Source: Amyelois transitella
Taxonomy: Eukaryota; Arthropoda; Insecta; Lepidoptera; Pyralidae
Length of the DNA: 64,000 bases
Assembly: GCF_032362555.1 (NCBI RefSeq)
Contig: NC_083536.1
Span: 12,276,001 to 12,340,000, forward strand
Direction: 5' to 3'
Part shown: piece by piece, positions 17,841 through 61,505 of the stretch
Layout of the letters: each line of letters begins with the position of its first letter
Numbering within the stretch: position 1 is the stretch's first letter
Program-made: the position numbers and the translations under genes
The notes under the pieces: model-generated
What the model was told of the DNA's origin: nothing
Database searches by the model: none
Seen by the model: the letters and a program-made list of their open reading frames with translations, nothing else

Positions 17841-17844
17841 GACT

Positions 17845-43363: not shown

Positions 43364-43380
43364 TTTTTTTTTTTTTTTTT

Positions 43381-43682: not shown

Positions 43683-43705
43683 TTTTTTTTTTTTTTTTTT
43701 TTTTT

Positions 43706-44028
43706 AACGTGTGGAAAGACCTTCGTCTACCCGGCCGGCTACGGGAAGTCGGTCGGGTTATGTGGGGCTTGAACCCACTAAAACCACACGGTGCCATCGC
43801 CTACCGCTTCGTTGCCAGGAGTGTGAGCTGCCCTCGCTCATACTCCTGACGCGGCGGCCGCTTCCACGGCGGCCTCGGCTCGGCCGCTCTCCACTGAGCG
43901 GCCAGCGGGGTGACCCGTCGGCCTTCAATTCTACCCGCTAGGGGAGGGCGCGCCTGGCACAAGCGCGCCTTCGACCCAGGGCCGTTTCGCCAGGCAGCGG
44001 AATCCCGTTTCCGCCGCCCGACCGGCCC
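43706..44028 (-). promoter_or_regulatory. SART-I 3' UTR (complete copy)
   Basis: Same hairpin as in copy 1 (GGCCGCTC/GAGCGGCC, 43882-43903); only the loop base next to the stem differs. The GGTTTTAGTGGGT motif is at 43785-43773 on the minus strand. Confidence 0.65.
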
Positions 44029-47000
44029 TTATTGTGGGGGCAGCAGGTGCAGGGCGTATGCCCGCCTCCTGCGCCCAGTGCGCCGGCGGCGTATGGGGAG
44101 GTCGGACGTGTCCTCTCTCACCCTTTCCGCCGCCTCTTTGCGGAGCATGACGCTCTCCGCAAAGGTCTGCACTGCTGTCCACGACCTCTCGCTGTCGACC
44201 ATCTGTCTCACGACAGCCGGCAGAGAAAGGTCGTCCCCCACGACCGCGCGAAGCTCCGCACGGTCTTGGTCCCAGGCTGGGCAAACCTCCAAGGTGTGCT
44301 GGGCGTCCTCGTCAGCACATCCGTCACAGTGGTGGCAGACAGCAGACGGCTCCCGACCGATCAGACACAGATACCCTCCGAAACAACCATGTCCGGAGAG
44401 CATCTGGGTCAGACGGTAAGTCAGGCTACCGTGCTGCCTCGCCAACCACTGTCCCAACACCGGACGGACCGCCTCGACGGTTCTACGCCCAGCAGTCGGC
44501 TGCTCCAGCCTTTGGGACCACTCTTCAATGGAGCGCTGACACAGCTCATTGCGGCGTCCTGCGATCTCCCTCGGTGCTAACCGGTGACCCTGGGCCACGG
44601 CCTCCTCGCGCCAGAAGAACAGCGACGCGAGGGTTTTCGCCTCTAGGTCCCAGGGAATGGAACCGGCCAGCACAGACGCTGCCTCAAAGGAGATCGTGCG
44701 ATATCCCCTTGCGGCTCTCGTCGCCATCAGCCTCTGTGGCCTCCGCAGGGAGGCGAGGTTTTGGCGAGAGAGCGCATCCGCCCATACGGGGGCCCCGTAA
44801 AGGGCTATTGATCGCACGACCCCCATGTACAAGCGCCTGCAGGACGCTTCTGGACCTCCCAGATTCGGCATGAGCCGAGTCAGCGCTCCGGCCGCCGTCG
44901 TCACGCGCGGCGCTAATTCCGCGAAGTGGGCGCCGAAGTTCCATCTGCCATCAAGAACGATGCCCAGGTAGCGCATCGATTGCTTGATGGCAATTGAAAC
45001 ACCAACCGTCAGACTGGCGTCTGCAGGCGGCTTCCTCCGAGGGCCATGGAAGCACAGCGCCTCGGATTTGTGGAGAGCCACCTCCAGACCCAGTCGACGG
45101 ATCCGGCGCACCACTTCAGCGACTCCCGCAGTGGCGAGCAATGACGCCTCCCTATATGTGGCGCCGCGGGCGGTCACGAGTGTGTCGTCCGCGTAGCAGA
45201 CGACCTCCACCCAGGGCAGAGTGACCGTCCGCAGCACCCAATCGTAACCGATGTTCCACAGGAGCGGTCCTAAGACAGAACCCTGTGGAACACCGCGCGT
45301 CATTGAACTCTTCGTCCAACCGTTTCGGTCAGGGAAGATTATCCATCTCTCTGAGAGGTAGTCCTGGATGACCCGACGCAGGTAGGTCGGCACCCCATGG
45401 TATCGGAGTGCCTCCACAATGCAAGACCAGGGGAGGGAGTTAAAGGCGTTGGCGATGTCCAAAGACACCGCCACGACCACCTCACCCTGGGCAACCGCAT
45501 CCTGCGCCAAGGACTTCACCCTCAGCACGGCGTGAATCGTCGACCGCCTCCGGCGGAACCCGTATTGGCGATCCGCCAGGTCCGGTCCGACTCTCTCCAG
45601 GTGCTCGACGAGGCGGTCAGCAATGACCCTTTCCAGCAATTTGCCGGCCTCATCGAGCACGACGAGGGGACGGAACCCGGTCGGAGAATCCGCCGGACGT
45701 CCCTCCTTCTGCAGTAGGACTAGTCGGCCCACTTTCCACGCCGCGGGAAACCTTCCCTGCTCGAAACAGGCTGTGAACAGCCCCCTCAGCCGTTCCCCCA
45801 GAACGTCCAGAGCGAGGACGAGGGCACGACCCGGAACTCCATCAGGACCCGGGGCGACGTTCTTCGCACGCAGCCGTGTAACGGCTGCAGCAAACTCATC
45901 CCGGGTCACCTCCGGGATCGCCTCCACGCCCTCGCTTCTTTCCGCCAGTGGCGGTGCCATACTGGGGGGCTGAAAGGCCGCTCCCTGCGGGAACAGAGCG
46001 GCCACCACCTCACCGAGGAACTGCGGATCCAAGGTCCGCGTCAGGGGGGCCGCATACGGCCGGAGCTTATTCCGGACCAGCCGATACGGGCGCCCCCAAG
46101 GATCGCGGTCCAAGGTACCCAGCAGCTCCTCGCGTGCTGCCTCCTTGGCAGACGCTATCGCGGTCCTCAGCGATCTCTTCGCCTCCACTAGTGTCGCGCA
46201 CAAGGCGGCCTCTTCGGACTCGTCCCTGCGCCTTCTCCTCCGGTATCGGGCGTACTGGCGTCTAGCCCTGAAACAGGCTTCTCGCAGACGCGAGAGCTCG
46301 GGCGACCACCAGTACACCCACCTTCTGGGAGGACGAGTACTGGCCCGGGGCATCGAGGCGTCGCAGATTTCTGCTAACGCGCCCCGGAACCACTCGGTTT
46401 CGTCCTCTACCACCACATTCGCCGGCGCACGGGACCAACCTTTTACAATGGCCGCCTCGCGGAGAAACTCCTTGTCGAGGCGCTTCAGCTGCCACCTCGG
46501 GCCAGCCTCGTTCGGAGTTCGGCTTGGGCCGCTCGGAGCGACCGAGGACGCGGAGAGATCAAACCGTATGTAACGGTGATCAGAGAGCGTCTCCACGTCC
46601 TCCAACACGCTCCAGCCCTCGACACGGCGCGCTAGGTCTGGGCTCGCGAACGTAACGTCCGGTCGCGAGCTACCGTTCCATCGCACGCACGTGGGTGCCG
46701 TCCCCCGATTCACTACCGCTAGCCCGTTAGTGATGAGCCACTCCTCGATAAGTGCACCCCGCGCATCTGTTGCGGGGGATCCCCATGCCGTTGATTTGGC
46801 ATTGAGATCTCCAGCAACCAGCACGGGGAGAGGGTGACTCCTCAGGACCAGCGCCTCGACCTGGGTCAGGAATGACTCGAACTCGTTGAGCGGACGGTTG
46901 GGCGAGAAATAAACTCCAACCACAACCAAGTCACCCAGACGAGCCGAGACCATTCCATGACCTCGCACGACACATGTAGGAGGCGAAGAGCTCGCCGAAG

Positions 47001-47172
47001 ACACGATCGCCACCGCACTGTCTTCGTCCCGCACCCAGTTATCCCGGGGCGGGATGAAGTACGGCTCAGAGACCACCGCCACGTCTATCAACCACTGCGC
47101 CATGCTCTGACACAACAGGTCCTGTGCACTGGTGCAGTGGTTTATATTCGCCTGGAGAACTTTGAGGGCCAT
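44029..47172 (-). CDS. SART-I ORF2: endonuclease-reverse transcriptase
   Basis: Intact 1047-residue protein. Apurinic-type endonuclease at residues 1-225: QANINHCTSAQDLL, VVSEPYFIPP (catalytic Glu), VAGDLNAKSTAWGSP (Asp/Asn), VEDVETLSDHRYI-type end (SDH). Linker RDPWGRPYRLVRNKL. RT at about 380-720: NVAPGPDGVPGRAL, FRPLVVLDEAGKLLERVIAD, AVSLDIANAFNSLPW, GVPQGSVLGPLLWN, VVCYADDTLVTA (YADD at about 658). The C-terminal R1-type Cys/His region (CHHCDGCADEDAQHTLEVC) precedes a basic tail. There is no RNase H, unlike the TRAS-like elements. The start ATG follows the ORF1 stop after five bases (TAA, TAATT, ATG), suggesting translation coupled to ORF1 termination, as described for silkworm SART1. The endonuclease should nick telomeric DNA. 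Confidence 0.95.
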   Translation of the reverse strand: MALKVLQANINHCTSAQDLLCQSMAQWLIDVAVVSEPYFIPPRDNWVRDEDSAVAIVSSASSSPPTCVVRGHGMVSARLGDLVVVGVYFSPNRPLNEFESFLTQVEALVLRSHPLPVLVAGDLNAKSTAWGSPATDARGALIEEWLITNGLAVVNRGTAPTCVRWNGSSRPDVTFASPDLARRVEGWSVLEDVETLSDHRYIRFDLSASSVAPSGPSRTPNEAGPRWQLKRLDKEFLREAAIVKGWSRAPANVVVEDETEWFRGALAEICDASMPRASTRPPRRWVYWWSPELSRLREACFRARRQYARYRRRRRRDESEEAALCATLVEAKRSLRTAIASAKEAAREELLGTLDRDPWGRPYRLVRNKLRPYAAPLTRTLDPQFLGEVVAALFPQGAAFQPPSMAPPLAERSEGVEAIPEVTRDEFAAAVTRLRAKNVAPGPDGVPGRALVLALDVLGERLRGLFTACFEQGRFPAAWKVGRLVLLQKEGRPADSPTGFRPLVVLDEAGKLLERVIADRLVEHLERVGPDLADRQYGFRRRRSTIHAVLRVKSLAQDAVAQGEVVVAVSLDIANAFNSLPWSCIVEALRYHGVPTYLRRVIQDYLSERWIIFPDRNGWTKSSMTRGVPQGSVLGPLLWNIGYDWVLRTVTLPWVEVVCYADDTLVTARGATYREASLLATAGVAEVVRRIRRLGLEVALHKSEALCFHGPRRKPPADASLTVGVSIAIKQSMRYLGIVLDGRWNFGAHFAELAPRVTTAAGALTRLMPNLGGPEASCRRLYMGVVRSIALYGAPVWADALSRQNLASLRRPQRLMATRAARGYRTISFEAASVLAGSIPWDLEAKTLASLFFWREEAVAQGHRLAPREIAGRRNELCQRSIEEWSQRLEQPTAGRRTVEAVRPVLGQWLARQHGSLTYRLTQMLSGHGCFGGYLCLIGREPSAVCHHCDGCADEDAQHTLEVCPAWDQDRAELRAVVGDDLSLPAVVRQMVDSERSWTAVQTFAESVMLRKEAAERVREDTSDLPIRRRRTGRRRRAYALHLLPPQ

Positions 47173-47177
47173 AATTA

Positions 47178-49409
47178 TTAAGAGGCCCCCGTTTCCATCG
47201 CCTCGGCGCTCTGAGCCGCACGAGCAGGCTGCGTCTGGGCCGTAGCCGCGGACGCACCCCGCTTCCCACCTCTCCTTTTTTTATTTTGGCGCGTGCTGGA
47301 GCACGCCTTGCTCCCCACGCGGTGCCCCGTCGGCTTGCCTGCCCCCGCGCACAAGATGCACTTGGGGGCGGCATTGCACGCCGCGGCCTTGTGACCCGGC
47401 TCGCCGCACCTGTAGCACAGCAGGCTCCTGTCGGACTCGGCAGTGCACCGCTGCGAGACATGACCCGTCTCTAGGCAGCGGAAGCACTGCATGGGCCTAG
47501 CCGGCAGCAGTTTTACCTGCGCCGAAACCCATCCGACTAGGAGTCTGGTGCCGTTGGCGGTCAGCCGTTTGGCCGCCGCGATGGGACACCTTACCCAGGC
47601 CGTGCGAACGCCCGAGCGGTCCTCCCGAATGTCCCCGACTCGGATTTCCGATTCGGGGCATTGACCCGCACGAGCGATTGCGCTACATACCAAGGCTGGT
47701 GTGGCGGAGTCGCACAGCTCCAGCACGCGCACATCCACACTCTTTAGAGGCCTGGATACCTCTGCTACCTGAGGATCCAGGACCTCCTTCAATTTGGACG
47801 CCAGGAGGTTGGCCTTGTCGTCCTTTTCAGTGCCCGCTATCTCTAAGATGCGGGCACCGGTTGCCGCCTTTTTAAATTTGACCCCGGGTATACCCAGGGC
47901 GCCGAGGTCCACTTTATCCATGGCCAGATCCATGATCTGACCATATGTCGCTCCCCGCTTTTCCGCGTCCGGCCGCAGCCTGATCACAACCGCAGCCGAC
48001 CGCGGTGGGCGGAGTTTGGGCGGTTGTGGACCCTTCTCTTTTTTGGCCGCAGCCTGGTTACCCCGGGGTGGGGCAGCGGCAGCGGCAGACTTCCTCCTGG
48101 CACCCTTCTCCGGCACCTTTTTCCAGGGCTCTTCGCTTGGCCCAGGAGCCGGAGGCAGAGCGGTTGGCCGTGACGCCGGCGCAGCCGTTACGGCTGCGTA
48201 GGATGATGAGTTGGCCGACCTCGTTGACGACCGTGGTGGAGTCACCAACGGTACCGGCTCAGGCGCCGTAGGGGCAGAGTTCCCTTTATTGCCCTTTCCC
48301 TTCCTACCCCGTTTGCCTTTGCCCTTTTTGGGCTTGGGTTCAGGGGTCGGTTGGGGGGGCGCCTTCCGCCACACGGCCGTACGGCTTGCCGGAGCCGGCA
48401 CCGGCACCTCCTCCACATCGGTGTCGGAGACCGGGAGCATGTCGGCCACCGAGGCAGCCAACCCATCACCCGACGTCTCTTTCGCCGGCGTACGGCGTTT
48501 ATCGGCTGCCAGTGCGGGCCGCAAACTTTTCGCCGGCAGGAGACGGTCCTGGAGGCCCTCAAAACGGGCGTCCAGTACAGGACTCATCGTGGAGAGAATG
48601 AGGCGCTGCAGCACCTCAGTCTCCTCCTGCCGGAATTCTGTCAAAGGGGCAGGCGCAAGGGCCGCCCGTTCGGGACGCTCACTATTAATGGCAGCTCTGA
48701 GCTGCGCCACTTCTTTCTCAAGTGAGGAGACCTTTGCTTCCATGCGCTCGCATATTACGCGCAGGCGCTCAGCCTCCTCACCTGTCGACCCAGAGCTCAG
48801 AGCCGACATCACCTTCTCTAGGGACGCCGCAGCGTCCTTCAGGCCCTTTTGAAAGGTACCCTTGAGGTTCCCTGAATGGGCCGCAATTTCCCGGATGATT
48901 TTTATATTGGTTGCGGCCTGGTCCCCAAGGGTGCCCTTGTCTGCGGGCGATGACGCCTGCAGCGTCTCCGCCTTTTTGGCCATCTCGGCCACCGCCTTTT
49001 CAGCCTCATCGCGCTTTGCCGCCACTAACTCCCGACGGGCGTCAGCGGACAAAGTCGACTTCGGCCGACCACCTTTTTTCGCCGCTTTCGCGGCCTTCAT
49101 AATTGGCGCCTTGGGCGCTTTCGGTGCCGGCATTTCTGCACTGGCACCATCCTCCCCCTCACGGCCCCTTTTTGGAGCCCGCTGTCGGGGTTGCACCTCC
49201 AATAAGCTTTCTACGCTCACCCATTCCGCCTCGGAGAGTGAGCCAGCCTCTGGCTGCGACGTCAATATTAAGGGACTTGCGTCCCTATGTCGGTTCTTGC
49301 CCCCCCCAGATACGGTGGGGCAGCCCGCGCCCGAGGACGCGGGGAGGGATTCTCCGACCGCGGCGCGGCCGGTACCCTCCTGGGGTAGTGAAGTCTTAAG
49401 AAGCGACAT
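47178..49409 (-). CDS. SART-I ORF1 protein (Gag-like, CCHC knuckles)
   Basis: Intact 743-residue protein. N-terminus LLKTSLPQEGTGRAAVGESL and GCPTVSGGG, shared with SART-II ORF1. Ala/Lys-rich region (APKAPIMKAAKAAKKGGRPK), coiled coil (EEAERLRVICERMEAKVSSL), and a basic, Pro-rich middle (KPKKGKGKRGRKGKGNKGNS). The conserved R1 ORF1 domain (AVVIRLRPDAEKRGATYGQI; GVKFKKAATGARILEIAG; VSRPLKSVDVRVLELCDSAT) follows. CCHC knuckles end it from about residue 640 (CFRCLETGHVSQRC, CYRCGEPGHKAAAC, CILCAGAGKPTGHRVGSKAC). Expected to bind the element RNA and localise it to telomeres in the nucleus; basic clusters are candidate nuclear signals. Followed closely by ORF2. Confidence 0.94.
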   Translation of the reverse strand: MSLLKTSLPQEGTGRAAVGESLPASSGAGCPTVSGGGKNRHRDASPLILTSQPEAGSLSEAEWVSVESLLEVQPRQRAPKRGREGEDGASAEMPAPKAPKAPIMKAAKAAKKGGRPKSTLSADARRELVAAKRDEAEKAVAEMAKKAETLQASSPADKGTLGDQAATNIKIIREIAAHSGNLKGTFQKGLKDAAASLEKVMSALSSGSTGEEAERLRVICERMEAKVSSLEKEVAQLRAAINSERPERAALAPAPLTEFRQEETEVLQRLILSTMSPVLDARFEGLQDRLLPAKSLRPALAADKRRTPAKETSGDGLAASVADMLPVSDTDVEEVPVPAPASRTAVWRKAPPQPTPEPKPKKGKGKRGRKGKGNKGNSAPTAPEPVPLVTPPRSSTRSANSSSYAAVTAAPASRPTALPPAPGPSEEPWKKVPEKGARRKSAAAAAPPRGNQAAAKKEKGPQPPKLRPPRSAAVVIRLRPDAEKRGATYGQIMDLAMDKVDLGALGIPGVKFKKAATGARILEIAGTEKDDKANLLASKLKEVLDPQVAEVSRPLKSVDVRVLELCDSATPALVCSAIARAGQCPESEIRVGDIREDRSGVRTAWVRCPIAAAKRLTANGTRLLVGWVSAQVKLLPARPMQCFRCLETGHVSQRCTAESDRSLLCYRCGEPGHKAAACNAAPKCILCAGAGKPTGHRVGSKACSSTRQNKKRRGGKRGASAATAQTQPARAAQSAEAMETGAS

Positions 49410-49766
49410 ATCATATATTTCCTTTTTTACAAGGGTTCGGTCCCTGAAAGATTGGGCGCTCGAGACGGGGTTCCCCCCCCGCCATTCATCCCCTAGGCAC
49501 GCCCGACCGTGGGATTGGGGTTATTTTTTATTGAGGTTTTCTTCCTCGCGGCGCTGGCCATGATAGCACAGTACCCTCGGCCCCATCAGTTGGGGTAACG
49601 AGTTGCCCGACGCCGGCCGAAACCGGAACGCCGCGCGAAGAGTTGCGCCACATCCGCTCTCGTCTGAAAGCAGACAAGAGGGAGCGGCGCCCGACACGCG
49701 AGGGTCTAAATAAATAGACCCCGCCCACCAAAACACTCGCGAAGGCCCCACAGGGGACCCCGCTTT

Positions 49767-49952
49767 TGCGGGACATTGGCCAACAACAAACAAGACCCCG
49801 TCAATCGGGGAGTTATTTGCTGTCGCCCGGGGTGCACCGTCCCGTGTCCCTCGTCAGCCCACCGCTGTAACCGGATTCATTGGAATCAGGCAACAGAAGC
49901 AAGGCCTTCAAGAGACAGGGCACTCGAGGAGGTTTCCCGCACTTAGCACCCC
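49767..49952 (-). ncRNA. HDV-like ribozyme, complete SART-I copy
   Basis: On the minus strand the same helices as at 8642-8827: P1 GGGGTGC (49952-49946) with GCACCCC, P2 TGCGGGA with TCCCGCA (49773-49767), P3 ACC/GGT, and P4 including CCCCG/CGGGG. Cleavage would release the RNA at 49952, exactly where the target duplication ends. Confidence 0.78.
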
Positions 49953-49957
49953 ATGTT

Positions 49958-52900
49958 TTAGGCTTCCTCCAGCCCCGCTTCGAAAGCGAGTATACTGTCC
50001 CTCGTTACGTCGTCACCGTTCCAGATCGCCATTTTGAGGTTGTAGTCCCTGATGGAAGCGTCGGTTGCTCTCTCTGCACGTTGGATAAAACGAGCTACTG
50101 CGTCGTTCTTTGTGTTATCCACGTAGTACACACAGGTCTTCGTGTGTCTGGAGATCGCAACCACCGCGTGCGGGACGCTCATAAGCAGATTGGATTTTTT
50201 TGATGTTGTACGTACAATCACCACTGTCTCGAACGTTCGACCTTGTGCTTCATGTATAGTAAGGGTGCAAGAGCCCGAGTTGGTTCCGTATCCCTGGCCA
50301 ATTAGGAGTTCCTTCTCAGCCTGGGTGTGGGTAAGATACAATGTATCATTCAACTTCGGGATAACAGCCCCTCCATACTCCTTCAGCTTCAGGGAGCGCG
50401 TGAGATTTTTGGCCGAGTAGATGCCGCTATAGATTTCTCCTAGGGCATATGCCACGTCTTGCGGGTTTCTGTACGTACACAACAATTCTTTCGTGACAGA
50501 CGTGATTTTGTGGGGTCTGCAGTATTTCAGAAGAAACAGGTTGTGTCGGTCGATATAGGGAAGCTGGTTTTGGTCTCCGATCAGCATGGTCTCGCTGGCT
50601 CCTGCGATCTTGATGGCCATTACTATAGATCCAAAATGATTCATTAGGGCTTCGTCTACCACGAGGCGGTTGCACGTTTCACCCTTCTTCATTCCGTTCA
50701 CTAATAGTGAAGCCATGGTTCGAACTCGCTGTTTAGCTCGTTCTTCCCCGATCTTCGGTGTCAGTTTGTCCCTGAGATCTTTGACTGCTTCCCTTGTGGC
50801 GGTCACGATGAGGTCGCTTTCTATGTTGACATTAGCGACTACCCATGTGGTTTTTCCACATCCGGGCACTCCGTTCACCCATGTGAATGTTGGTACCGCC
50901 AAGCATTCCAGCCTGTTGCCTTCTGTCAGGTCCCCGAAGATGGTTTTAGCCATTTCGAGGATTCTGTCTTCCAGCATTACTCTGGTGCACTTGGCGACCA
51001 CAACCTTCGGGTCTTTTGGAGGATTTATGGCCCGAATGTGGCCCTCCTCTTCCGGCTGGCTCTTTTCGAGTTCTATGAAGCCCTCGGTTGCGCAGTATGC
51101 CGCCATGTACTCCCCCAACGCCTTCCCGTGTATCACACGTTGTGCGTCGAGGTCGTAAACTGCAGCCTCCGCTTCCTCTAGCTTCACTTCGAGCGATTTT
51201 ATGTTGCCACGCTTGTAAGTCCGCAATATTGCACTGCAGATATCTTCATTGACTTTGCGCGTGGCAACCGTTATCGCTATGAACTCTCGTAGAGCGTTCT
51301 CCATATGGGCCAGCTGATCGTTCGCCGGCTTCAGCCAGGGGGGGGTCACAAGTCCCATGTCCGCTCTGGTTCGCTGGGTGGTCTGCGTAACCTCTTGGCG
51401 GGACGTCGATGGGGTTGTGAATTTTGCCACTGCCGTTTCCTGTAGTACCGTTCTTCTGAGTTTGCTCATTTTCTCTCCCACTGGGCCTGCGATCGCCTGG
51501 GCCATTCGGTTTAGGAGCGAGGTGACCGTGGACTTCTTCCTATCTTCGTCCTGGTCGGTGACTATCCGCTTCGACTGGCGACTCTCCTCCTCGAGCGCTT
51601 GTTGCAGCCTCTCCGATCCGCTGGAGTCCCGAGATTGACTCGGAAGTCCCCCGCGATTCGCAGCGGCCTCGCTTTCGCCCTGTCCGCGTCTCAAAAGAAA
51701 ACCGAGATCTTGACCTCTGTTTTCGTATACCACTACCTCGTGGTGTTGCGAGGCTGTAAGGGCACCCAGGTGGTCCCGGGTTTCGCCCGTGTGGTGAGAC
51801 ACTGCCATGACGTCCACGCTTAGCACTTTAGGAGTGTGAGTATCTCCCGTTCTCCAGTTCCCTATGTCCTTCAGCACGCTGCATACCTTCTGGAAGGCTG
51901 TGGAGTTGTCGTCAGTGGCGAACAGTGCGATGGTTTTGTTCTTCCTCCGCACTATCCGACACCGCTGACCCCCCACTGATACCGTTGGTAAGGCGTCGTA
52001 GATTTTACGACGCATGGTAGTTTTGCTTGTGCTTCCGTTCAATAGGAGACCGAGTCCCGGTGAGATGTAGACGTTTGTCTTCGCCCTGTCGTTGCAGAAG
52101 GCCACTCCCACTCGTTCCGAGTTGTTGTTCATGAACATGGCAACTCCTCGGACCCTGAGCCTGGGCTTGCCGGCCTCGGCAGAGTGCAAGAGATTTGGCA
52201 ATAGGTCTTCGCTGCCAAATGAGCACTGCTGCCCTTGTGTGTGTGTGGTTTGTGTTTGTGTTTGTGTGTTCGAGGAGGGTTGCGCCTCGCCAGCCGTGGC
52301 CTTGTTGCGCTTTGTTGCGATTGCTGCGACTTCCTCGATGTATTTGAGGAAGTGGTCCTTTGTGCTTTTGTTATGGAGCAGGTCGCTCAGCACTTCCCTT
52401 CCCAACTTTTGGTTGCAGACACACTCCAGGTTGTAACGGGCAGTTTGAAACCTGGGGCAGTCGAGTATTATGTGCCATACCGATTCGCTGACGTTCGGGT
52501 CGCACTCGCATCCGGGACTGTCTTTCAACTTGAACCGGTACAAGTATTCTCCGAAGCCGCCGTGACCCGTCAGAATTTGAACGTGCAGGTGGTTTAGATT
52601 CGTTCCTCGCACGAAGCTGTAAGCTTTACTTACATCGGGGAAGAACGTTCTCGTTACCGCACCTTGGGAGGCAGTATCGAATCTGTCTTGCCATCTGGCA
52701 ATAGATTCCTCCCTGATCTTTCTTCTGACGTATGACAGCGGGACTTCTGCGTAATCGGGAGAGAGATTCTCTTTCGAGGCTCCCTCTTTGGCAAGCTCGT
52801 CCGCCCTTTCGTTTCCTGCCGTGCCCACGTGGGCTCTGAGCCAGAACAGGCGAACCCTTCTCCCTCGCGACCGTATTACTGCTATGCTCTCTCTGATAGC

Positions 52901-54994
52901 CTTTGCCAGAGGATGGGTGAGCCGAGTACTGCACAACAATTCCAACGACGATCTTGAGTCGCTAAGGATGTTGATCGCTTCCTCTTCGCTCTCCAGCGCT
53001 CTGGACACCGCCCTGTGGAGTGCATACAATTCAGATTGGAACACGGTACACGTGGGGTCCAGGCTGAAGACTTGGCTGTGTATCTCCTTCCCACTTTCCC
53101 ACCACGTTAGTGCCGCTCCCACCTTGCCCTCCATTTTACTCCCGTCGGTATACACCTGTGGGCCAGTAATCTGGAGGGCAGTTTGGGTGGCATCTGTCAT
53201 ATCCTCGAGCAGAGTGTACTCTAGTTCGATTTGAGAAGCCGGGTGTGGTAAATCTTTGGCTTTAACAATCTCCTCGAGTTTACGATGCGGTGGTAGGAAA
53301 TCGACGGAGAGCCCTTTCTTCGCCTCGTATAGGGACGCAACTTCCTGGATTCTGAGATCGAGCGGTAGGATTCCCGCTAGGATTAACGCTGCCGGCAGTG
53401 ACGTTGTTCTGTATGCCTTGCAGATCCTTTGCGCGAAACCCCTCTGGAGTGTGTCTAGCGCTTTTCTGTTTGTGATGTTCTCAGACGCTTTTGCCCATGC
53501 GCAGGCCCCATACGTTACGATAGGTTCTATCACTGCAACGTACAGGGTTCTGATGATTTCTGTGTTCAGTCCCCAGGTGACTCTCGCGGCGCATGTCAGT
53601 TGTTTGTATATGCTGGCCGCTTTTGTGCAGATGTTTCGCACGTGAGTGTTGAAGTTGAGCCACCTGTCTATGGTGAGTCCTAGGAGTTTAATCTCGTCGA
53701 CCAGAGTCAGAGTCGTTCCGGACATGGTGATATGGGGGGGGGTGTACTTCAGTTTTTTTGTCAGCAACATGACTTGCGTCTTGTGTGCTGCGAAGTTCAG
53801 CTTGTTTTCCTTCCCCCACTCTACCGTCATCTCCAATACTCTGTTGACGCGATCCTCCATTCCCTCTACGGTCTTACCGGAGAACACCAGAACTCCATCG
53901 TCTGCGAACGCCTGGCAGTAAACTTCCTCTGACGATAGCCTATGCAAGAGGGGATCCAAGATAATGTTCCAGAAGGTAGGGCCCCCGATCGAGCCTTGAA
54001 CACATCCTTTCGTGGTATCCCTTTCGCTGGTTTCTCCCGCATAGTTGACGACTATCTTTCTGTCCTTGAGGTATGAGTCCACCATCAGGTATAAGTTTTT
54101 GGGGCAGCGTCTGAGCCTCAGCTGGTTCATTAGAGCCGGCCACCACGCGTTGTCGAAGGCCCCCTCTATGTCCAGTGACACGATCAACACGGATCTCCCC
54201 GCTTCCTTTTCCGCATTGACGTGTCCGATCAGGTCATAGAGAGCGTCCTCTGTTCCGCGTTGCGGCAAGAAACCGTACTGCCTTGGATTGAGGGTTGGGA
54301 GTAGGTGCCACTGTAGTCTTCTCACAAAAAGCTTCTCTAACGTTTTCCCTAGCACTGATAACAGGCCTATTGGGCGATAGGACTTCGGGCTGGTGTAATC
54401 TTCTTTGCCCGGTTTGTTGAGAATGACTACATGTGCGATTTTCCACTGTTTGGGGAAGTAGGAGATGGCTAAGCACTTGTTGGCTATCGCCATGAACACA
54501 TCCCGTGAGCAGCGGATCGCTCTGGCGCAGATGTCCGAGGTGAATCCGTCCGGTCCCGGTGCCTTCTTGGGGTTCTGCTCTTGCAGCACGGCCTCCAGTT
54601 CGGCTTCGGTGAATGGCGGGTCATCCTCTTTCAATTCTCCCAACCTCTCTTGAGGTGTTTCTTGTACAATTTTCCGGAGTTGAGTGTGGTGCGGGGTGTC
54701 GGTTTCCACCGTGTCGTCAGGGTAGAAAGTGTTCGCTAGTAGCACTGCCGACTGCTTGGGATCCAAAGTCTTTCCATCCGGTCCTCTAAGCAGTAGCTCC
54801 TCTTTTCTACCTGATGTTTTCCTGAGGACACGGTAGATTCCGTCCCACATGCTCTCTTTCTCCTGCTTTGTACAGAATTCCTTCCAACTCCGAGTTTGGG
54901 CCTCGGCAGATTGCTTGGCGTATAACGCCTTGGCCTCATTGTACTCTTGCAGCACGTGTTCCTTCCGGTGGGGAGCAGCGTTCTTGATCCTCTT
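49958..54994 (-). CDS. Element D ORF2: RT-RNase H fused to an SF1 viral-type helicase (5' end missing)
   Basis: One open frame of about 1,680 residues, numbered here from 55018 (its first eight codons are RTE tail). TRAS-type linker (KEFCTKQEKESMWDGIYRVL), RT (NPKKAPGPDGFTSDICARAI, VSLDIEGAFDNAWWPALMNQ, KGCVQGSIGGPTFWN, FADD at about 371) and RNase H (VYTDGSKMEGKVGAALTWW, about 620-745) are followed by a Cys/His region (CECDPNVSESVWHIILDC). TRAS-C stops soon after this point. D continues through a Gln/Thr linker (about 915-935), about 300 residues I cannot assign, then a helicase: GVPGCGKTT (Walker A, about 1383), VVDEAL (about 1454), LIGDQNQLP (about 1479), TYRNPQDVA, HEAQGRTFE (about 1588), VAISRH (about 1620). 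These match the alphavirus-like SF1 helicases of tobamo- and virga-like RNA viruses; no motif is broken. The stop is 49960-49958. Confidence 0.93.
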   Translation of the reverse strand, partial: KRIKNAAPHRKEHVLQEYNEAKALYAKQSAEAQTRSWKEFCTKQEKESMWDGIYRVLRKTSGRKEELLLRGPDGKTLDPKQSAVLLANTFYPDDTVETDTPHHTQLRKIVQETPQERLGELKEDDPPFTEAELEAVLQEQNPKKAPGPDGFTSDICARAIRCSRDVFMAIANKCLAISYFPKQWKIAHVVILNKPGKEDYTSPKSYRPIGLLSVLGKTLEKLFVRRLQWHLLPTLNPRQYGFLPQRGTEDALYDLIGHVNAEKEAGRSVLIVSLDIEGAFDNAWWPALMNQLRLRRCPKNLYLMVDSYLKDRKIVVNYAGETSERDTTKGCVQGSIGGPTFWNIILDPLLHRLSSEEVYCQAFADDGVLVFSGKTVEGMEDRVNRVLEMTVEWGKENKLNFAAHKTQVMLLTKKLKYTPPHITMSGTTLTLVDEIKLLGLTIDRWLNFNTHVRNICTKAASIYKQLTCAARVTWGLNTEIIRTLYVAVIEPIVTYGACAWAKASENITNRKALDTLQRGFAQRICKAYRTTSLPAALILAGILPLDLRIQEVASLYEAKKGLSVDFLPPHRKLEEIVKAKDLPHPASQIELEYTLLEDMTDATQTALQITGPQVYTDGSKMEGKVGAALTWWESGKEIHSQVFSLDPTCTVFQSELYALHRAVSRALESEEEAINILSDSRSSLELLCSTRLTHPLAKAIRESIAVIRSRGRRVRLFWLRAHVGTAGNERADELAKEGASKENLSPDYAEVPLSYVRRKIREESIARWQDRFDTASQGAVTRTFFPDVSKAYSFVRGTNLNHLHVQILTGHGGFGEYLYRFKLKDSPGCECDPNVSESVWHIILDCPRFQTARYNLECVCNQKLGREVLSDLLHNKSTKDHFLKYIEEVAAIATKRNKATAGEAQPSSNTQTQTQTTHTQGQQCSFGSEDLLPNLLHSAEAGKPRLRVRGVAMFMNNNSERVGVAFCNDRAKTNVYISPGLGLLLNGSTSKTTMRRKIYDALPTVSVGGQRCRIVRRKNKTIALFATDDNSTAFQKVCSVLKDIGNWRTGDTHTPKVLSVDVMAVSHHTGETRDHLGALTASQHHEVVVYENRGQDLGFLLRRGQGESEAAANRGGLPSQSRDSSGSERLQQALEEESRQSKRIVTDQDEDRKKSTVTSLLNRMAQAIAGPVGEKMSKLRRTVLQETAVAKFTTPSTSRQEVTQTTQRTRADMGLVTPPWLKPANDQLAHMENALREFIAITVATRKVNEDICSAILRTYKRGNIKSLEVKLEEAEAAVYDLDAQRVIHGKALGEYMAAYCATEGFIELEKSQPEEEGHIRAINPPKDPKVVVAKCTRVMLEDRILEMAKTIFGDLTEGNRLECLAVPTFTWVNGVPGCGKTTWVVANVNIESDLIVTATREAVKDLRDKLTPKIGEERAKQRVRTMASLLVNGMKKGETCNRLVVDEALMNHFGSIVMAIKIAGASETMLIGDQNQLPYIDRHNLFLLKYCRPHKITSVTKELLCTYRNPQDVAYALGEIYSGIYSAKNLTRSLKLKEYGGAVIPKLNDTLYLTHTQAEKELLIGQGYGTNSGSCTLTIHEAQGRTFETVVIVRTTSKKSNLLMSVPHAVVAISRHTKTCVYYVDNTKNDAVARFIQRAERATDASIRDYNLKMAIWNGDDVTRDSILAFEAGLEEA

Positions 54995-55069
54995 ACATAC
55001 ATACATACATACATACATAAAATCACGCCTCTTTCCCGGAGGGGTAGGCAGAGACTACCTCTTTCCACT

Positions 55070-55186
55070 TGTAGTGTAGCCCTAATTGTAATATGTTATA
55101 CTATTATATACTATATACTTGATGATCAATAAATCAGTATCGATTCAGCTTTTGTTTAATTTACACGCATTCCCTCCTATATTAGA
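55070..55186 (+). repeat. Gypsy-2 5' LTR
   Basis: 117 bp, short for a Ty3/Gypsy LTR; contains AATAAA (about 55129). It ends in GA instead of the usual CA. Confidence 0.94.
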
Positions 55187-55383
55187 TGGCGACCCTTGCC
55201 TAGTCTGTCTCCGCGCTCGCGACCCGATACCGCGCCTTTTAAGGACTACGGAATTTTATCATCGTGTGTGGCCGTGTGGCTCTCTGTGATCAAAAATGCA
55301 TTTGGAAGAGTACAATAATAAGATTCGTGAAGCGATCACAACGCTATTGTTACACGGAGGAAATTTGGTAAATTTCACGAAAA
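55187..55383 (+). other. Gypsy-2 leader with putative primer-binding site
   Basis: TGGCGACCCTTGCC right after the LTR is in the position and style (TGG start, complementary to tRNA CCA) of a primer-binding site; the tRNA was not identified. Confidence 0.6.
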
Positions 55384-55668
55384 ATGGGTGCATCTCAATC
55401 TAACAAGAACGAGGATGTGGTGATTGCCCAAGTTGCATCTGGAGGGAGTAATACGACCCAATTCGAGAAATATATGAACACCAATAATATAATCTTGGTC
55501 TTACTGCTGGTTTTGGTGGCCACGGGCGGCCTGATATTCATATACAGAATTTTTAAAAATTGGCAGGGATTTGTGATACGACAAGAAGTTAGAGATGCAA
55601 TATTGACCAGATATTCTAGTATCATACGACGGCAGCAGGATAGGGGTGATCCTGTGTTCCAGGCCTAG
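55384..55668 (+). CDS. Small predicted myristoylated membrane protein in the Gypsy-2 leader
   Basis: A 94-residue frame starting ATGGGTGCATCTCAA, giving MGASQSNKNE, a consensus N-myristoylation start (Gly2, Ser5). After a polar stretch comes one strongly hydrophobic segment (IILVLLLVLVATGGLIFIYR, about residues 35-54) and then a basic cytoplasmic-type tail (KNWQGFVIRQEVRDAILTRY and RRQQDR). It lies between the primer-binding site and gag, on the sense strand, with about 500 noncoding bases before gag. I do not recognise a family. The layout suggests a small protein anchored in membranes, perhaps for assembly or release of particles, but that is inference from topology only. The open frame in a young, otherwise intact element supports its being real. 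Confidence 0.65.
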   Translation: MGASQSNKNEDVVIAQVASGGSNTTQFEKYMNTNNIILVLLLVLVATGGLIFIYRIFKNWQGFVIRQEVRDAILTRYSSIIRRQQDRGDPVFQA

Positions 55669-56170
55669 CGTGATTGACGATGACGACCAACTACGTGACT
55701 AGCAGACCCAGTCCTGATGTTCATCCTACTACGTGCGTTTTAAATCTCTCGGGTGTGTACAGTGTGATATATATAGTGATGCGTTACGTTAATAAAAATT
55801 AAGAGTTGTTGCGGTATAGAAGTCGGGACTGAGTGCGAATACGGCAGAATTTACGGATTACGATACCTACCTATTTAGTGGACATTAAGTAATTATACCT
55901 CTATATTAAATTACCAATATACTTATACGTTTTATACTTATATACAAATTATTCTTATCCATATTAAAGTGTTAAAGCTAAAGCATAATTGTGGTATAAA
56001 TAATATTTCATAATGATAAGTACTTAACAAAATTATTACTTTACCGTGTATTGTTTACATAGCGATGTCCATATATGATACGTCTCGGTGCCACTACTAC
56101 TGGAGCTCACGGGAATTAATATGGTACGTAATTTTATATTACTTTTTCTATTGCTATTTTATACTAAGTT
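55669..56170 (+). other. Gypsy-2 spacer between small ORF and gag
   Basis: About 500 AT-rich bases with no frame of note. A splice-based or internal-initiation route to gag expression could lie here but I see no decisive site. Confidence 0.4.
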
Positions 56171-57406
56171 ATGGAAAGAGAATTATTAAAATGCTTGGAA
56201 GATATCATACAAATAAAGAAGTATTTGATTAAGAAAGGAAAATCTAGGTACAAGGGAAACGTTATAAAAAATAAATTAAGTGAGTCAGATTTAATTTTGA
56301 AACGTTGTGATAGTATTGTAAAAGTTTTGTGTCAAGAGAAAGGATTGAGTAGTAAAACAGTAGATAGTATTAACTCCATAACAACTGAAATTCGTAGTGT
56401 GTACGACAATATTAAACTTTTATGTTCAACTCCTAAAGAGGAAATAAGTAGTGATAGTGATAGTAATTATAGTGAAACTGCTGAATTTTTAGACTCAAAA
56501 ATGGAGTTTGATTTGAAGACGGCCTGTGAGTTTATCTCTGTAATGAACAGTAATGAAAATAATACGAAAAACATGATTGACTCGATAGAAATGTATGCTG
56601 AAATGTTGTCCAATCCAGGAAAACAAATTTTGATAAAATTTGTGCTGAAAAGCAGACTTACAGAAAATGCTAAACTTCGTATGCAAAAGGAATATTCATC
56701 TGTAAGTGACCTTGTTAAAGACTTAAGAAAATTTCTTTTATCTAAAAAATCTTTTACATCAATTCATTCGCGATTGCAAAATGTTACTCAGGGTTGGCGT
56801 ACAATTGATCAGTATGGGGCAGAAATCGAAAAATTGTTTTCCGATTTGACAATTTCGCAAGCAGAGGGTAATTCAGAAAAATACGCTGTTTTGAAACCTT
56901 TGAATGAAAAGTTGGCGGTGAAACGGTTTTCAGATGGACTGCGGGATTCCCGTCTGAGCACCATCATTACAGCTCGAAACTACGAGCATCTCAAGGACGC
57001 GATCCAGGCGGCTAAAGACGAGGAGGTAGCTGCAACGTCTTCGACGACGGCCTCAGCAGGTATCATGCAGATCTCGCGCCGTGGAAGAGGTATGTATCCT
57101 CAATATACTCGCATGCAGCATGGCAGATTCCAACATTCGAGGTATCAGCATAACAATGTAAGAAATTTTAGACAAGGAAATCAGTTTCGTGGCAGTCAAA
57201 ACACTTCGTTTAACAATTTTAATAGAGGACATTTTAATAATAGAAGCGGTCAGAATCGTACTCGTTATAATACCCGTGGTAGGGGACATATGAAAAATTC
57301 TTCGAATCGTGGTTCGAATCATCGTGTATTTTACAATGAACAAACGAATGAGGAGGTTCAACCCGAAACATCTAGTACAAATGAATTAAAGTTTTTTCGA
57401 TCTTAA
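56171..57406 (+). CDS. Gypsy-2 Gag with RG-rich C-terminus, no zinc knuckle
   Basis: 411 residues. The N-terminal half is helical and charged; the middle matches a gag capsid region in general form (FISVMNSNENNTKNMIDSIE, SVSDLVKDLRKFLLSKKSFT, QNVTQGWRTIDQYGAEIEKL, VKRFSDGLRDSRLSTIITAR). The last ~100 residues are rich in Arg, Gly, Asn and Gln (ISRRGRGMYPQYTRMQHGRF; RGHFNNRSGQNRTRYNTRGR) and contain no CCHC box, so RNA binding is probably by this basic RG-type tail. Gag stops at TAA 57404-57406. The downstream pol frame opens at 57390, giving a 17-base overlap in the +1 frame. Confidence 0.9.
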   Translation: MERELLKCLEDIIQIKKYLIKKGKSRYKGNVIKNKLSESDLILKRCDSIVKVLCQEKGLSSKTVDSINSITTEIRSVYDNIKLLCSTPKEEISSDSDSNYSETAEFLDSKMEFDLKTACEFISVMNSNENNTKNMIDSIEMYAEMLSNPGKQILIKFVLKSRLTENAKLRMQKEYSSVSDLVKDLRKFLLSKKSFTSIHSRLQNVTQGWRTIDQYGAEIEKLFSDLTISQAEGNSEKYAVLKPLNEKLAVKRFSDGLRDSRLSTIITARNYEHLKDAIQAAKDEEVAATSSTTASAGIMQISRRGRGMYPQYTRMQHGRFQHSRYQHNNVRNFRQGNQFRGSQNTSFNNFNRGHFNNRSGQNRTRYNTRGRGHMKNSSNRGSNHRVFYNEQTNEEVQPETSSTNELKFFRS

Positions 57407-60400
57407 ACATAACATTTTGACTTTAGATGGTAAAACAAAATTTTTGTCTTTTTATGTTAATAGGAAATTACATTTTTATTTGGTTGATAGCGGTGCATCT
57501 TTATATGTCATAAAAAGAGATTCTTTACCTATAAACGTAACTTTAAATAAAGACGACACTATCGTGAACGGAATAGGCGGACAAATTCGTTCGGCAGGAT
57601 ATATTTATCTTAATTTGGAGCATAATAGTGATCATTCTAGAATAGTATTCAATCATAAGTTTTACGTATTCGATAGCATACCATTACAGGCAGATGGAAT
57701 TTTAGGCTTAGACTTTCTGTGTTACTACGGTTCAAATATCAATCTGAGCTCAAATGTAGTCACTGTATCCCAAAACGGAATGGAATGTTGTTTGCCACTT
57801 TATGATTCAATCGATTATTCTAGAGAAGTGTTACTTATCCCAGCACGAAGCGAATCATTCCATCATGTTTATGTTTCTTCTAGTAGTGACAAGGATTATG
57901 TTGTTTATCCAAAGCAATTAGCGGAAAATTTGTTCATGGCAGGATCTATAGTTAGAGTAACAAATAATAGAATACCAATTAAAATATTAAACACCAATGA
58001 ACATCAAATTGAGTTGCCTACATTTCAACCAGAATTACATTTGTTGTCAGATTACGATACATATAAATTCGAGTCTTGCTCAAGAAACTCAGAACGAGCA
58101 AAACGTTTATTAGATTTAATAAATTTAAAAAATTTAAATACTGAAGAACGAGATTCAATTCAACTTTTGTGTTCCAAATATGCAGATATTTTCTTTTTGC
58201 CAGGAGATAAGTTATCTTCTGCAAATGTTAATGAACAGTCTATTACATTAAAACCAAACACGACACCAGTTTATGTCAAGCAATACAGGTTACCACAATC
58301 TTTAAAAAAAGAGATAGACAATCAGATAAAAAATATGTTAGACAATGATATCATTGAGGAGTCTAGAAGTGAGTGGTCTAGTCCAATAATGTTAGTTCCA
58401 AAGAAATCGGATGGCAAAGACAAAAAATGGCGTTTTGTTGTTGACTACCGAAAATTAAATAATTGCATTGTTGATGATAAATTCCCGTTACCCAATATAA
58501 CAGACATATTGGATTCATTAGCAGGTTCAATTTACTTTACACATTTAGATTTATATCAAGGGTATTTTCAAATAAGCTTAGATAAAGACAGTAGAAACTG
58601 CACATCGTTCACAACGAGCACAGGAAAGTACCACATGAAAAAATTACCCATGGGATTGAAAACTAGCCCAAGTGTTTTCAGTCGTGTAATGTCTATAGCG
58701 ATGTCAGGATTAAACTATGAAAAATGTTTCATATATTTAGATGACCTTGTAATTTTTGGCCGTAACCTTGAAATTCATAATCGTAATTTAACAGATGTGT
58801 TTGAAAGGCTTCGAAAAATTAATTTGAAATTAAATCCTCAAAAATGTGTATTCTTAAAGAAAGAAATACTGGATCTAGGACATTTGGTTTCTGAAAAGGG
58901 TGTACTTCCTGACCCAGCTAAAATTGAAGTAGTTAAAAATTATCCAAAACCTACTAATACCGACGAAATCAAAAGATTTGTAGCCTTTTGTAATTACTAC
59001 CGTAAATTTATAAAAAAATTTGCTGAAATAACTGCACCTTTAAACAAGCTTACAAGGAAAAATGAAGTATTTAAGTGGACGGAAGAGTGTACAGTTGCAT
59101 TTGAAAAATTAAAGGAAAAATTAAGTTCACCCCCTGTTTTAGATTTTCCGGATTTTTCCGAAGGTAATGAGTTTATTTTACAGACTGATGCTTCCGGTAT
59201 TGCTGTCGGAGCAGTGTTGTGTAATAAAAATATGAAACCTATAGCTTATGCCAGTAGACCCTTAAACAAAGCGGAATTAAATTACCCTACGATTCAGAAA
59301 GAATTACTTGCTATAGTCTGGGCAATAAAGTATTTTAGACCATATTTATACAATAGAAATTTTACAATTTTAACAGATCACAGACCATTAGTTTACTTAT
59401 TTTCAATGAAAGACCCATCCAGTAGACTTTTAAAATTCAGACTTCTTTTAGAAGAATACGATTTCAAGATTAACTATATAAAAGGTAAAGATAATAGTGT
59501 TGCAGATGCTTTGTCTAGAGTTTATATTACGTCAGATACATTGAAAAGCATGAACGAAGACATTATAATGGTTTTGACTAGGAGACAACGTAAAAATTTG
59601 GAAGAAAGTAGTGAAAGTTCTATTTTAAGTAATCCCACTGATGAAAGGTCTGATCAGCCTCGAGTTGTGGAATTGTTTAAAATACCGAACGATTACATGG
59701 AATTGACTTTTATAGAAAAAAAGGATTTAGATAAATTGAGGAGCAAAAATAACGTAGATTTAGAAAAAGAATGTTTCATTTATTGCAAAATAAAGAATAC
59801 TATTTATATAAACATTGACTTTAGGGCACATTTTACGCGAGCCGAATTTGTGACTAAGTTAATGGAATTTTGTAAAATAATCAAAGTAAAAGAACTATGC
59901 ATAGTAAAAAATAATGAGATAAAAACATTCATAAATGATTTGTTACAAGAAATAAATAATAGAACGAATTGGACCGGTCCACGATTTTATATAATAAAGA
60001 GTGTTAAGAGAATAGAGAATGACGAAGACAAACAGTATATTTTGCATGACTTCCATTTGTTACCAACCAGTGGACATGCTGGAATTCGTAGAATGACTAA
60101 TAACATTAAGAGGTTATTTTTTTGGCCTGGTTTAGATAAGGATATTAAGGATTTTGTAAATAAATGTAGCAAATGTCAAAAAATGAAGCATTGTAGATAT
60201 ACCAAGGCGCCAATGGAGATAACTACAACTGCTTCCAATGCTTTTGAGAAAATTTATTTAGACCTTTGTGGACCTTTAGAGAGAGACTCAGATGATAATC
60301 GCTATATCTTGACAATCCAATGCGAATTAACAAAGTTTGTCGAAGCTTATCCTTTAAAAAATAAAGAGACGGTAAGTATTGCACATGCGTTTGTCAATAA

Positions 60401-61070
60401 TTTTATACTTAGGTTTGGAATACCAGATACTATTGCAACAGATCGCGGAACGGAGTTTGTCTCATCTACAATGGAACAGGTTTGTAATTTATTAGGTATA
60501 GAAAAGTTAACATCTACAGCTTACCACCACGAATCGCTAGGAGCTATTGAAATTTCTCATAAGAGCCTAGGTGCGTTTTTACGCATACATTGTGATGATC
60601 AAAAAGATACGTGGAGTCAATGGCTTCCATTTTGGTGTTATAGCTACAATAATACTGTTCACACAGAGACGAACTACACACCGTTTGAATTGGTATTTGG
60701 TAAACCTAGTAAAATTCCCTGTAGAGTTAGAAATAATAATAATATAGAACCCTTGTATAATCCAGAAAATTATCCTTTACATTTAAAGCATCGTTTACAA
60801 GTATCTCTTCAAGATGCTCGTAAGAATTTAATTTATAGTAAAGAAAAGAGGAAATGTTTATATGATAAAACATTAAATGATGTATCATATAATACTGGAG
60901 ATTTAATATTAATTAAAAATGAAGTAGGTAAAAAGTTAGATTGTAAATTTTTCGGTCCTTTTACTGTCATAGAAGATTTAGGATGTAATGTGAAAATTGC
61001 AAAAGATGATAATAAAGTAGACGTAGTACACAAAAATAGGACAAAAAGGTTTATTATGTCATATCAATAA
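57390..61070 (+). CDS. Gypsy-2 Pol: protease, RT, RNase H, integrase
   Basis: The frame is open from 57390; no ATG is near and the track methionine at 57417 would be TTG, so expression as a Gag-Pol fusion by +1 frameshifting at TTT TTT CGA TCT TAA is likely. Protease: YLVDSGASLYVIKRDS at about residue 25. RT: VDYRKLNNCIVDDKFPLPNI, YFTHLDLYQGYFQI, YLDDLVIFGR (about 440). RNase H: TDASGIAVGAVLCN (about 590), TIQKELLAIVWAI, LTDHRPLVYLF, SVADALSRV. Integrase: HDFHLLPTSGHAGIRRM (about 877) with CSKCQKMKH, LDLCGPL, IATDRGTEFVSS, and the Glu in HHESLGAIEIS. Residues counted from 57417. Frame intact to 61070. Confidence 0.93.
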   Translation, partial: SFFDLKHNILTLDGKTKFLSFYVNRKLHFYLVDSGASLYVIKRDSLPINVTLNKDDTIVNGIGGQIRSAGYIYLNLEHNSDHSRIVFNHKFYVFDSIPLQADGILGLDFLCYYGSNINLSSNVVTVSQNGMECCLPLYDSIDYSREVLLIPARSESFHHVYVSSSSDKDYVVYPKQLAENLFMAGSIVRVTNNRIPIKILNTNEHQIELPTFQPELHLLSDYDTYKFESCSRNSERAKRLLDLINLKNLNTEERDSIQLLCSKYADIFFLPGDKLSSANVNEQSITLKPNTTPVYVKQYRLPQSLKKEIDNQIKNMLDNDIIEESRSEWSSPIMLVPKKSDGKDKKWRFVVDYRKLNNCIVDDKFPLPNITDILDSLAGSIYFTHLDLYQGYFQISLDKDSRNCTSFTTSTGKYHMKKLPMGLKTSPSVFSRVMSIAMSGLNYEKCFIYLDDLVIFGRNLEIHNRNLTDVFERLRKINLKLNPQKCVFLKKEILDLGHLVSEKGVLPDPAKIEVVKNYPKPTNTDEIKRFVAFCNYYRKFIKKFAEITAPLNKLTRKNEVFKWTEECTVAFEKLKEKLSSPPVLDFPDFSEGNEFILQTDASGIAVGAVLCNKNMKPIAYASRPLNKAELNYPTIQKELLAIVWAIKYFRPYLYNRNFTILTDHRPLVYLFSMKDPSSRLLKFRLLLEEYDFKINYIKGKDNSVADALSRVYITSDTLKSMNEDIIMVLTRRQRKNLEESSESSILSNPTDERSDQPRVVELFKIPNDYMELTFIEKKDLDKLRSKNNVDLEKECFIYCKIKNTIYINIDFRAHFTRAEFVTKLMEFCKIIKVKELCIVKNNEIKTFINDLLQEINNRTNWTGPRFYIIKSVKRIENDEDKQYILHDFHLLPTSGHAGIRRMTNNIKRLFFWPGLDKDIKDFVNKCSKCQKMKHCRYTKAPMEITTTASNAFEKIYLDLCGPLERDSDDNRYILTIQCELTKFVEAYPLKNKETVSIAHAFVNNFILRFGIPDTIATDRGTEFVSSTMEQVCNLLGIEKLTSTAYHHESLGAIEISHKSLGAFLRIHCDDQKDTWSQWLPFWCYSYNNTVHTETNYTPFELVFGKPSKIPCRVRNNNNIEPLYNPENYPLHLKHRLQVSLQDARKNLIYSKEKRKCLYDKTLNDVSYNTGDLILIKNEVGKKLDCKFFGPFTVIEDLGCNVKIAKDDNKVDVVHKNRTKRFIMSYQ

Positions 61071-61388
61071 TACATCGTTAAGTACTTACATTATGTTAAC
61101 ATTTATTAAATATGTAAAAAAAAAAAAAAAAAAAAATTGTACTTACCTTGTAAAATGTAGTCGTCAACAGTATACCTAAATACATACCTATATCTATAAT
61201 ATAATCGTCTAATATTAAGATTATCTGTGTTGTTTAGCACATAGGTATACTTTGTATTAATTAATATTCTTACAGTAGGTAATTTTCGTCGACGAAACCT
61301 ACACGAATACCTATATAACATTGTATTTGTTTATAATCATAAAAATAAAACTAATATTTTTATTTTTATTCTTTTTGCACCCCCGTGG
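61071..61388 (+). other. Gypsy-2 3' noncoding region
   Basis: About 320 bases between pol and the 3' LTR with an internal run of 21 A (61116-61136). The bases before the LTR (GCACCCCCGTGG) are not a typical polypurine tract. No gene seen. Confidence 0.6.
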
Positions 61389-61505
61389 TGTAGTGTAGCC
61401 CTAATTGTAATATGTTATACTATTATATACTATATACTTGATGATCAATAAATCAGTATCGATTCAGCTTTTGTTTAATTTACACGCATTCCCTCCTATA
61501 TTAGA
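61389..61505 (+). repeat. Gypsy-2 3' LTR
   Basis: 117 bp, identical by eye to the 5' LTR, followed by CACT. Confidence 0.94.

Follow-up and report, generated by a model that had tools for sequence, protein, structure and literature searches.

A telomeric TRAS-polarity LINE of Amyelois transitella with a fused virus-type superfamily 1 helicase

The window, by which we mean the whole stretch of 64,000 nucleotides analysed here, harbours a copy of a TRAS-polarity, RNase H-bearing telomeric LINE fused to a viral superfamily 1 (SF1) helicase, an identity that we regard as almost certain. The helicase LINE inserts in (CCTAA)n telomeric repeats and its near-identical copies are located mostly near chromosome ends. 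Fusion of a helicase to a reverse transcriptase (RT) has been known since 2015; the telomeric siting of the element conflicts with a claim made in the literature.

The ORF listing of the window contained a minus-strand frame open from 55054 to a stop codon at 49958-49960 (1698 codons), within which the following features of the second open reading frame (ORF2) of the element were placed.

49961..54994, minus strand: ORF2 fragment of the helicase LINE with RT, RNase H, zinc-knuckle-like motif, spacer and SF1 helicase; 1678 codons, stop codon at 49958-49960 (profile search)
53672..54409, minus strand: reverse transcriptase domain RVT_1 (profile match 3.8e-39)
52778..53155, minus strand: RNase H domain (RNase_H profile match 1.4e-12)
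52457..52510, minus strand: zinc-knuckle-like motif CECD...H...C of ORF2, named by inspection, with no profile
50879..52303, minus strand: spacer of ~475 amino acids, beginning at the point where the window's helicase-less relatives end, beside a CA-rich tract at ~52229-52275
50123..50878, minus strand: viral SF1 helicase core (profile and PDB matches)

The RVT_1, RNase_H and Viral_helicase1 profiles all matched within this one open frame, confirming the proposal of the initial annotation that RT and RNase H run without a break into a helicase. Homology of the window ORF2 to its helicase-less relatives breaks off near residue 897, leaving an added part of ~780 amino acids. The spacer returned zero matches in PDB, Pfam and NCBIfam searches, and single-sequence structure prediction gave pLDDT values too low to use for both the helicase with its N-terminal flank (34.4) and the spacer (39.6).

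When the frame was read from 54994, the helicase matched Viral_helicase1 (PF01443) at 2.9e-34 over profile positions 3-227 of 228, and scored 119 bits for this profile versus 33 bits for AAA_19. A search of PDB with the helicase core identified the tomato mosaic virus (ToMV) replicase helicase (structures 3vkw and 3wrx) as the best relative (8.1e-32) and alphavirus nsP2 as the second chain (1.2e-5), with no cellular helicase among the five PDB chains at E<=1, whilst NCBIfam yielded just weak TraA/RecD-like matches far under the cut-off. The alignment with the tobamovirus helicase extends over the full length of the SF1 core, including GVPGCGKT and SRHTK, although in ToMV the helicase is a domain of the viral replicase without fusion to an RT, whereas that of the LINE is fused to one. 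Judged by its sequence, the LINE helicase is of the virga/tobamo viral SF1 type and not cellular, cellular helicases being excluded as best matches, and the virus-type assignment made earlier is upheld. A scan of the helicase against viral contigs confirmed zero relatives. The strings GVPGCGKTT (50846-50872), DEALM (50642-50656), GDQNQLP (50558-50578), EAQGRTFE (50228-50251) and SRHTK (50138-50152) could all be placed in the window, and correspond to motifs I, II, III, V and VI in the numbering of the initial annotation. Motifs I to VI had been described as intact, which stands for these five; motif IV was not located singly.

The surroundings of this frame are more complex than had been supposed, and comprise the following features, in order along the window.

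43352..43363, minus strand: CCTAACCTAACC, telomeric repeat directly beyond the 3' terminus, after which the next TRAS-polarity LINE begins with its 5' end
43364..43380, minus strand: poly(A) tail of the helicase LINE
43381..43671, minus strand: rest of the helicase LINE 3' UTR, matching the 3' UTRs of other copies
43672..43682, minus strand: target-site duplication copy 2, GCCTAAAACAT
43683..49952, minus strand: SART-polarity LINE inserted in the 3' UTR of the helicase LINE (ORF1 47181-49520, EN-RT 44032-47280, poly(A) 43683-43705)
49953..49963, minus strand: target-site duplication copy 1, GCCTAAAACAT, 11 bp, with the stop codon within it
54995..55069, minus strand: terminal 3' part, with its (TATG)n tail, of the LINE that splits the helicase LINE; this LINE is RTE-like by inspection and its body resumes at 61506
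55070..61505, plus strand: Gypsy-like LTR element (class by inspection) inside the RTE-like LINE, with 117-bp terminal repeats at 55070-55186 and 61389-61505

Position 49958 is hence the stop codon of the helicase LINE and not the end of the element, and the SART-polarity LINE sits right behind it. The 5' end of this insert was defined via a second copy at 8641 that is preceded by (TTAGG)n. Beyond the insert, the 3' UTR matches those of the copies on contigs C30, C23 and C32 (at 0.72 Mb), amongst further copies, C32 being the contig of the window. The poly(A)-CCTAACC junction that had been placed directly at the end of the frame is real, but is located at 43352-43380, 6.6 kb away, because another LINE has inserted directly after the stop codon. 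Assignment of the poly(A) at 43364 to the SART-polarity insert was considered and ruled out by the duplicated site and by the agreement of the 3' UTR with those of other copies. The site used by the SART-polarity LINE, at 49953-49963, is a lone CCTAA in non-telomeric DNA, with a polarity opposite to that of its usual target.

Position 54994, previously taken as the start of the element, is instead the edge of the nested RTE-like LINE. The rest of the helicase LINE copy, with the endonuclease and the final part of ORF1, lies past the window at C32:12340891-12343609 (L033), where (CCTAA)5 adjoins the truncated ORF1 at the 5' limit of this copy. The window copy is a 5'-truncated telomeric insertion that was broken twice afterwards and is dead; being truncated and split by two nested insertions, it cannot yield a fusion protein as it stands, and the suggestion that it encodes a single functional polyprotein does not survive.

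The genome (327 Mb in 33 contigs) was searched for further copies, the resulting counts of helicase loci being lower bounds. A total of 13 Viral_helicase1 matches were retrieved, corresponding to at least 12 helicase loci, since two matches at C19:1.80 Mb belong to one element. The order RT, RNase H, spacer and helicase was also found at C2, C14, C30 and C32:0.72 Mb, with nucleotide identities of 99.0-99.8%, so that the same RT-helicase junction is present in other copies and an assembly break at 52000-52400 in the window, raised as a possible objection, is excluded. A repeat-rich array such as this could mislead assembly, and a chimeric contig or a frame open by chance would then account for the fusion; given the recurrence of the junction at these four loci and the continuity from RT to spacer at C20 and C31, we give this explanation practically no weight.

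The C14 copy encodes an ORF1 of 922 codons and an ORF2 of 2028 codons with zero stops, and the C30 copy likewise has ORFs of 922 and 2028 codons without stops, its ORF2 extending across two adjoining loci. In both, ORF2 comprises endonuclease, RT, RNase H, spacer and SF1 helicase. The C2 copy is open over 2026 codons, the C23 copy has lost most of its RT-to-spacer part, and that at C32:12.37 Mb is partial, with a deletion and a split by an insertion. The helicase frame is free of stops in all of the readable end copies, namely C2, C14, C23, C30, the window and the partial C32:12.37 Mb copy, whilst older internal copies contain stops or deletions. Two further C32 copies, at 0.72 and 0.739 Mb, match the window copy at 99.0% and 99.6% identity in the stretches compared. 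An RT search, in which 92 matches were scored of 4609 candidates, revealed the same lineage at C31, C20 and C32:6.6 Mb; the C31 and C20 copies lie 16 and 46 kb from contig ends and continue from RT into the spacer with a 99.4-99.5% match (the first part of the spacer in C31, the spacer in C20), and on this sequence continuity they likely carry the helicase as well. The C14 and C30 copies (L012 and L014/L015) are identical over 5034 ORF2 columns and 4342 upstream bases, which points to a very recent jump or to exchange between chromosome ends. Six of the 12 helicase loci are on C32, including internal ones at 0.72, 0.74, 1.53 and 11.14 Mb; speculatively, this contig may be a repeat-rich sex chromosome.

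The nearest contig end was 8-70 kb away at six of the 12 helicase loci (C2, C14, C23, C30, the window and C32:12.37 Mb) and 0.72-1.94 Mb away at the other six. Terminal stretches of at most 75 kb, in which the former six lie, make up 1.5% of the assembly (binomial P 1e-8, with loci treated as independent). Telomeric repeat was present at the contig ends of C2 (left, 3.9 kb), C23 (right, 7.7 kb) and C30 (right, 6.4 kb); the C14 contig begins within the helicase LINE and C32 has a non-telomeric right end, hence distances on these two are to the contig end only.

The poly(A) could be located for seven of the 12 helicase loci and, in six of these (the window, C30, C23, C32:0.72, C32:0.739 and C32:12.37), CCTAACC follows directly, that of C32:12.37 being seen via a displaced tail on L020. 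No poly(A) was found for the copies at C32:11.14, C19:1.94 and C32:1.53. All five of the located 5' ends (C30, C23, C32:12.37, C32:0.72 and the window copy) are adjoined by (CCTAA)n, and the C23 copy is flanked by 180 bp of telomeric repeat on its 3' side and 235 bp on its 5' side. The copies at C32:0.72 and C32:0.739 are near-identical and lie 0.72-0.74 Mb from the end, yet are flanked by CCTAACC. Both junctions thus agree with the insertion into telomeric repeats that had been suggested from the window alone. An exception to the target rule is the older helicase copy at C19:1.80 Mb (L024), in which non-telomeric sequence adjoins the poly(A).

Elements of the TRAS type insert in the (CCTAA)n strand and those of the SART type in the (TTAGG)n strand, according to the portion of PMC7265360 consulted. 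The helicase copies have TRAS polarity, with poly(A) followed by CCTAA, and those flanked by telomeric repeat are opposite in polarity to SART (poly(A) followed by TTAGG), so that in polarity the element fits the TRAS-type label given to it earlier. TRAS1 and TRAS3 of Bombyx mori have in common with the helicase LINE the (CCTAA)n insertion polarity and the two-ORF layout (PMC7265360 and PMC4686597, in the sections compared), but are without the helicase that it carries. SART1 of Bombyx mori is likewise a telomere-repeat LINE, and SART-polarity elements interleave with the helicase LINE in the window, but its insertion polarity is opposite.

A tree of 20 RTs (16 different), built with in-genome sequences only, grouped the helicase RTs with five helicase-less ones (support 99/97), with a lineage of two outside of this group (90/92), whilst six RTs around the window's SART-polarity element formed a separate group (100/100). 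RNase H was present in all three of the helicase-less TRAS-side proteins scanned (window 20571, L019 and L015), and a profile search returned zero RNase H matches in the window's SART-polarity element. Helicase-less relatives are also located at telomeres in the same genome; the helicase is therefore not a requirement for targeting and would instead serve as an aid.

The literature compared comprised parts of PMC5563155, PMC4686597, PMC6338049, PMC5803895, PMC10088271, PMC4700185 and PMC7265360. TRAS-type LINEs with a C-terminal SF1 helicase are described in the sections seen of Lazareva 2015 (PMC4686597) and Morozov 2017 (PMC5563155), as the initial annotation had noted of the fusion type, and an R1 LINE of S. 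frugiperda with a helicase in those of Geisler 2018 (PMC5803895). These TRAS-superfamily LINEs of the R1 clade resemble the helicase LINE in having an ORF1, an ORF2 with endonuclease (EN), RT and a C-terminal SF1 helicase of virga/tobamo-like type, and conserved motifs. The same architecture was found here, with a C-terminal viral-type SF1 helicase accompanied by ORF1, EN and RT in C14 and C30, the EN of the window copy lying past the nested insertion. The spacer of Lazareva-type LINEs exceeds 300 amino acids and is without known relatives, as is the ~475-amino-acid spacer of the helicase LINE. This literature already covers the long spacer and the conservation of the motifs, as well as transcription across many lepidopterans and closeness to Hubei virga-like viruses. 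The TTAGG telomeres, the TRAS and SART arrays and the host range on record together point to a lepidopteran host. RNase H is explicit in the present element, whereas the 2015 figure legend (PMC4686597), the part to which this comparison applies, gives EN, RT and a zinc finger.

The helicase LINE differs from its published relatives in its telomeric-repeat flanks near chromosome ends. A passage of PMC6338049 (2019), citing Kondo 2017 and Geisler 2018, denies that TRAS elements with a helicase can be found close to (TTAGG)n, and the siting of the helicase LINE at telomeres contradicts this statement. The character string 'telomer' does not occur in the main text of Geisler 2018 (PMC5803895), and full-text literature searches, judged for most hits from the listing and with most subscription papers outside their scope, brought up no account of helicase TRAS copies sited at telomeres. 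This siting also undercuts the published argument that helicase TRAS copies are a specialised non-telomeric class. A host antiviral role, in which a protein with RT and helicase makes chimeric viral cDNA that feeds antiviral RNAi, was proposed in PMC6338049 (Morozov 2019), in part on the premise that such copies are sited away from telomeric repeats and hence specialised; the premise fails in this genome, and we consider such a role very improbable here.

Selection was assessed from single-base differences of the window copy relative to other copies, pooled and counted irrespective of direction, with C32:0.739 (151 codons; one synonymous and one non-synonymous difference) excluded from the pooled counts. 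Across ORF2, comparison with C14, C30, C2, C23 and C32:12.37 gave 19 synonymous and six non-synonymous differences, relative to an expected non-synonymous fraction of 0.71-0.76 (p 8e-8 to 1e-6). The helicase alone had six synonymous and three non-synonymous differences from the five end copies (nine changes; p 0.009-0.02), or 10, seven and one stop with C32:0.72 Mb included. The coding differences of the end copies thus reflect purifying selection. In four older internal copies the helicase had 32 synonymous differences, 50 non-synonymous differences and two stops (p 0.002-0.03), a pattern that decay following a former period of constraint would produce.

These counts bear on whether the helicase might be a neutral passenger in copies too young to have decayed. 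Identities of 99.0-99.8% between copies, and the stops or deletions of older internal ones, would accord with this; the synonymous excess within the helicase (with or without C32:0.72 Mb), together with the conservation of its motifs across insect transposon helicases documented in the available part of PMC5563155, renders it improbable. Purifying selection is equally compatible with a helicase retained chiefly to suppress RNA silencing (siRNA or piRNA) directed at the RNA of the element, and not to serve integration. According to a published figure legend, the helicase of a P. xylostella LINE moderately raised the cell-to-cell movement of a suppressor-deficient plant virus, and TRAS1 is piRNA-controlled, as cited in the published work seen. 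However, by its authors' own account, in the text available, the plant-virus assay was not unequivocal, and a diffusible suppressor would have no need of fusion to ORF2, such that we view suppression as a rather unlikely main function.

We instead favour a helicase that acts in telomeric insertion. The endonuclease would nick telomeric DNA and the RT would prime on the nick, whilst the helicase, as a part of the ORF2 protein that also carries them, would open RNA-DNA or structured duplexes in the repeat array as target-primed reverse transcription proceeds; an intact helicase would therefore help its own RNA to jump. Viral SF1 helicases unwind both RNA-DNA and double-stranded DNA, as stated in the part of PMC5563155 consulted. 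Taken as a whole, that is the identity of the element together with a helicase working in cis in this reaction, we judge the proposal to have slightly less than an even chance. The wider idea that an RNA-virus helicase has been recruited to telomere biology, where its substrates would be telomeric DNA or RNA-DNA structures at the time of insertion and it would help to build chromosome ends, is put forward tentatively, and we lean against it. Since the C14 and C30 copies are identical over 5034 columns, end-to-end exchange may explain some copies in place of independent jumps. The roles suggested in the initial annotation, namely unwinding hybrids, displacing silencing complexes or helping template switching, were conjectural and are retained as such. 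The role of the helicase is now testable with existing telomeric retrotransposition assays, in which the sister lineages of this genome that lack the helicase offer natural controls.

Several other telomeric LINEs were observed in the window. Two more helicase-less TRAS-side LINEs occupy 20167-28521 and ~35192-43351, and their apparent 5' ends share GTTGCGCTCTG, or a near version of it, beside telomeric repeat. TRAS- and SART-polarity elements converge at 11320-11363 and 15066-15107, where their poly(A) tails face each other and are separated by just ~12 bp of telomeric repeat. Within ~11605-17900 a stretch is present twice, starting at 11605 and 15349 (~3.74 kb apart), and the first copy contains an ORF (12787-14763) in which the start of a LINE gag is in frame with the end of a SART-polarity RT protein.
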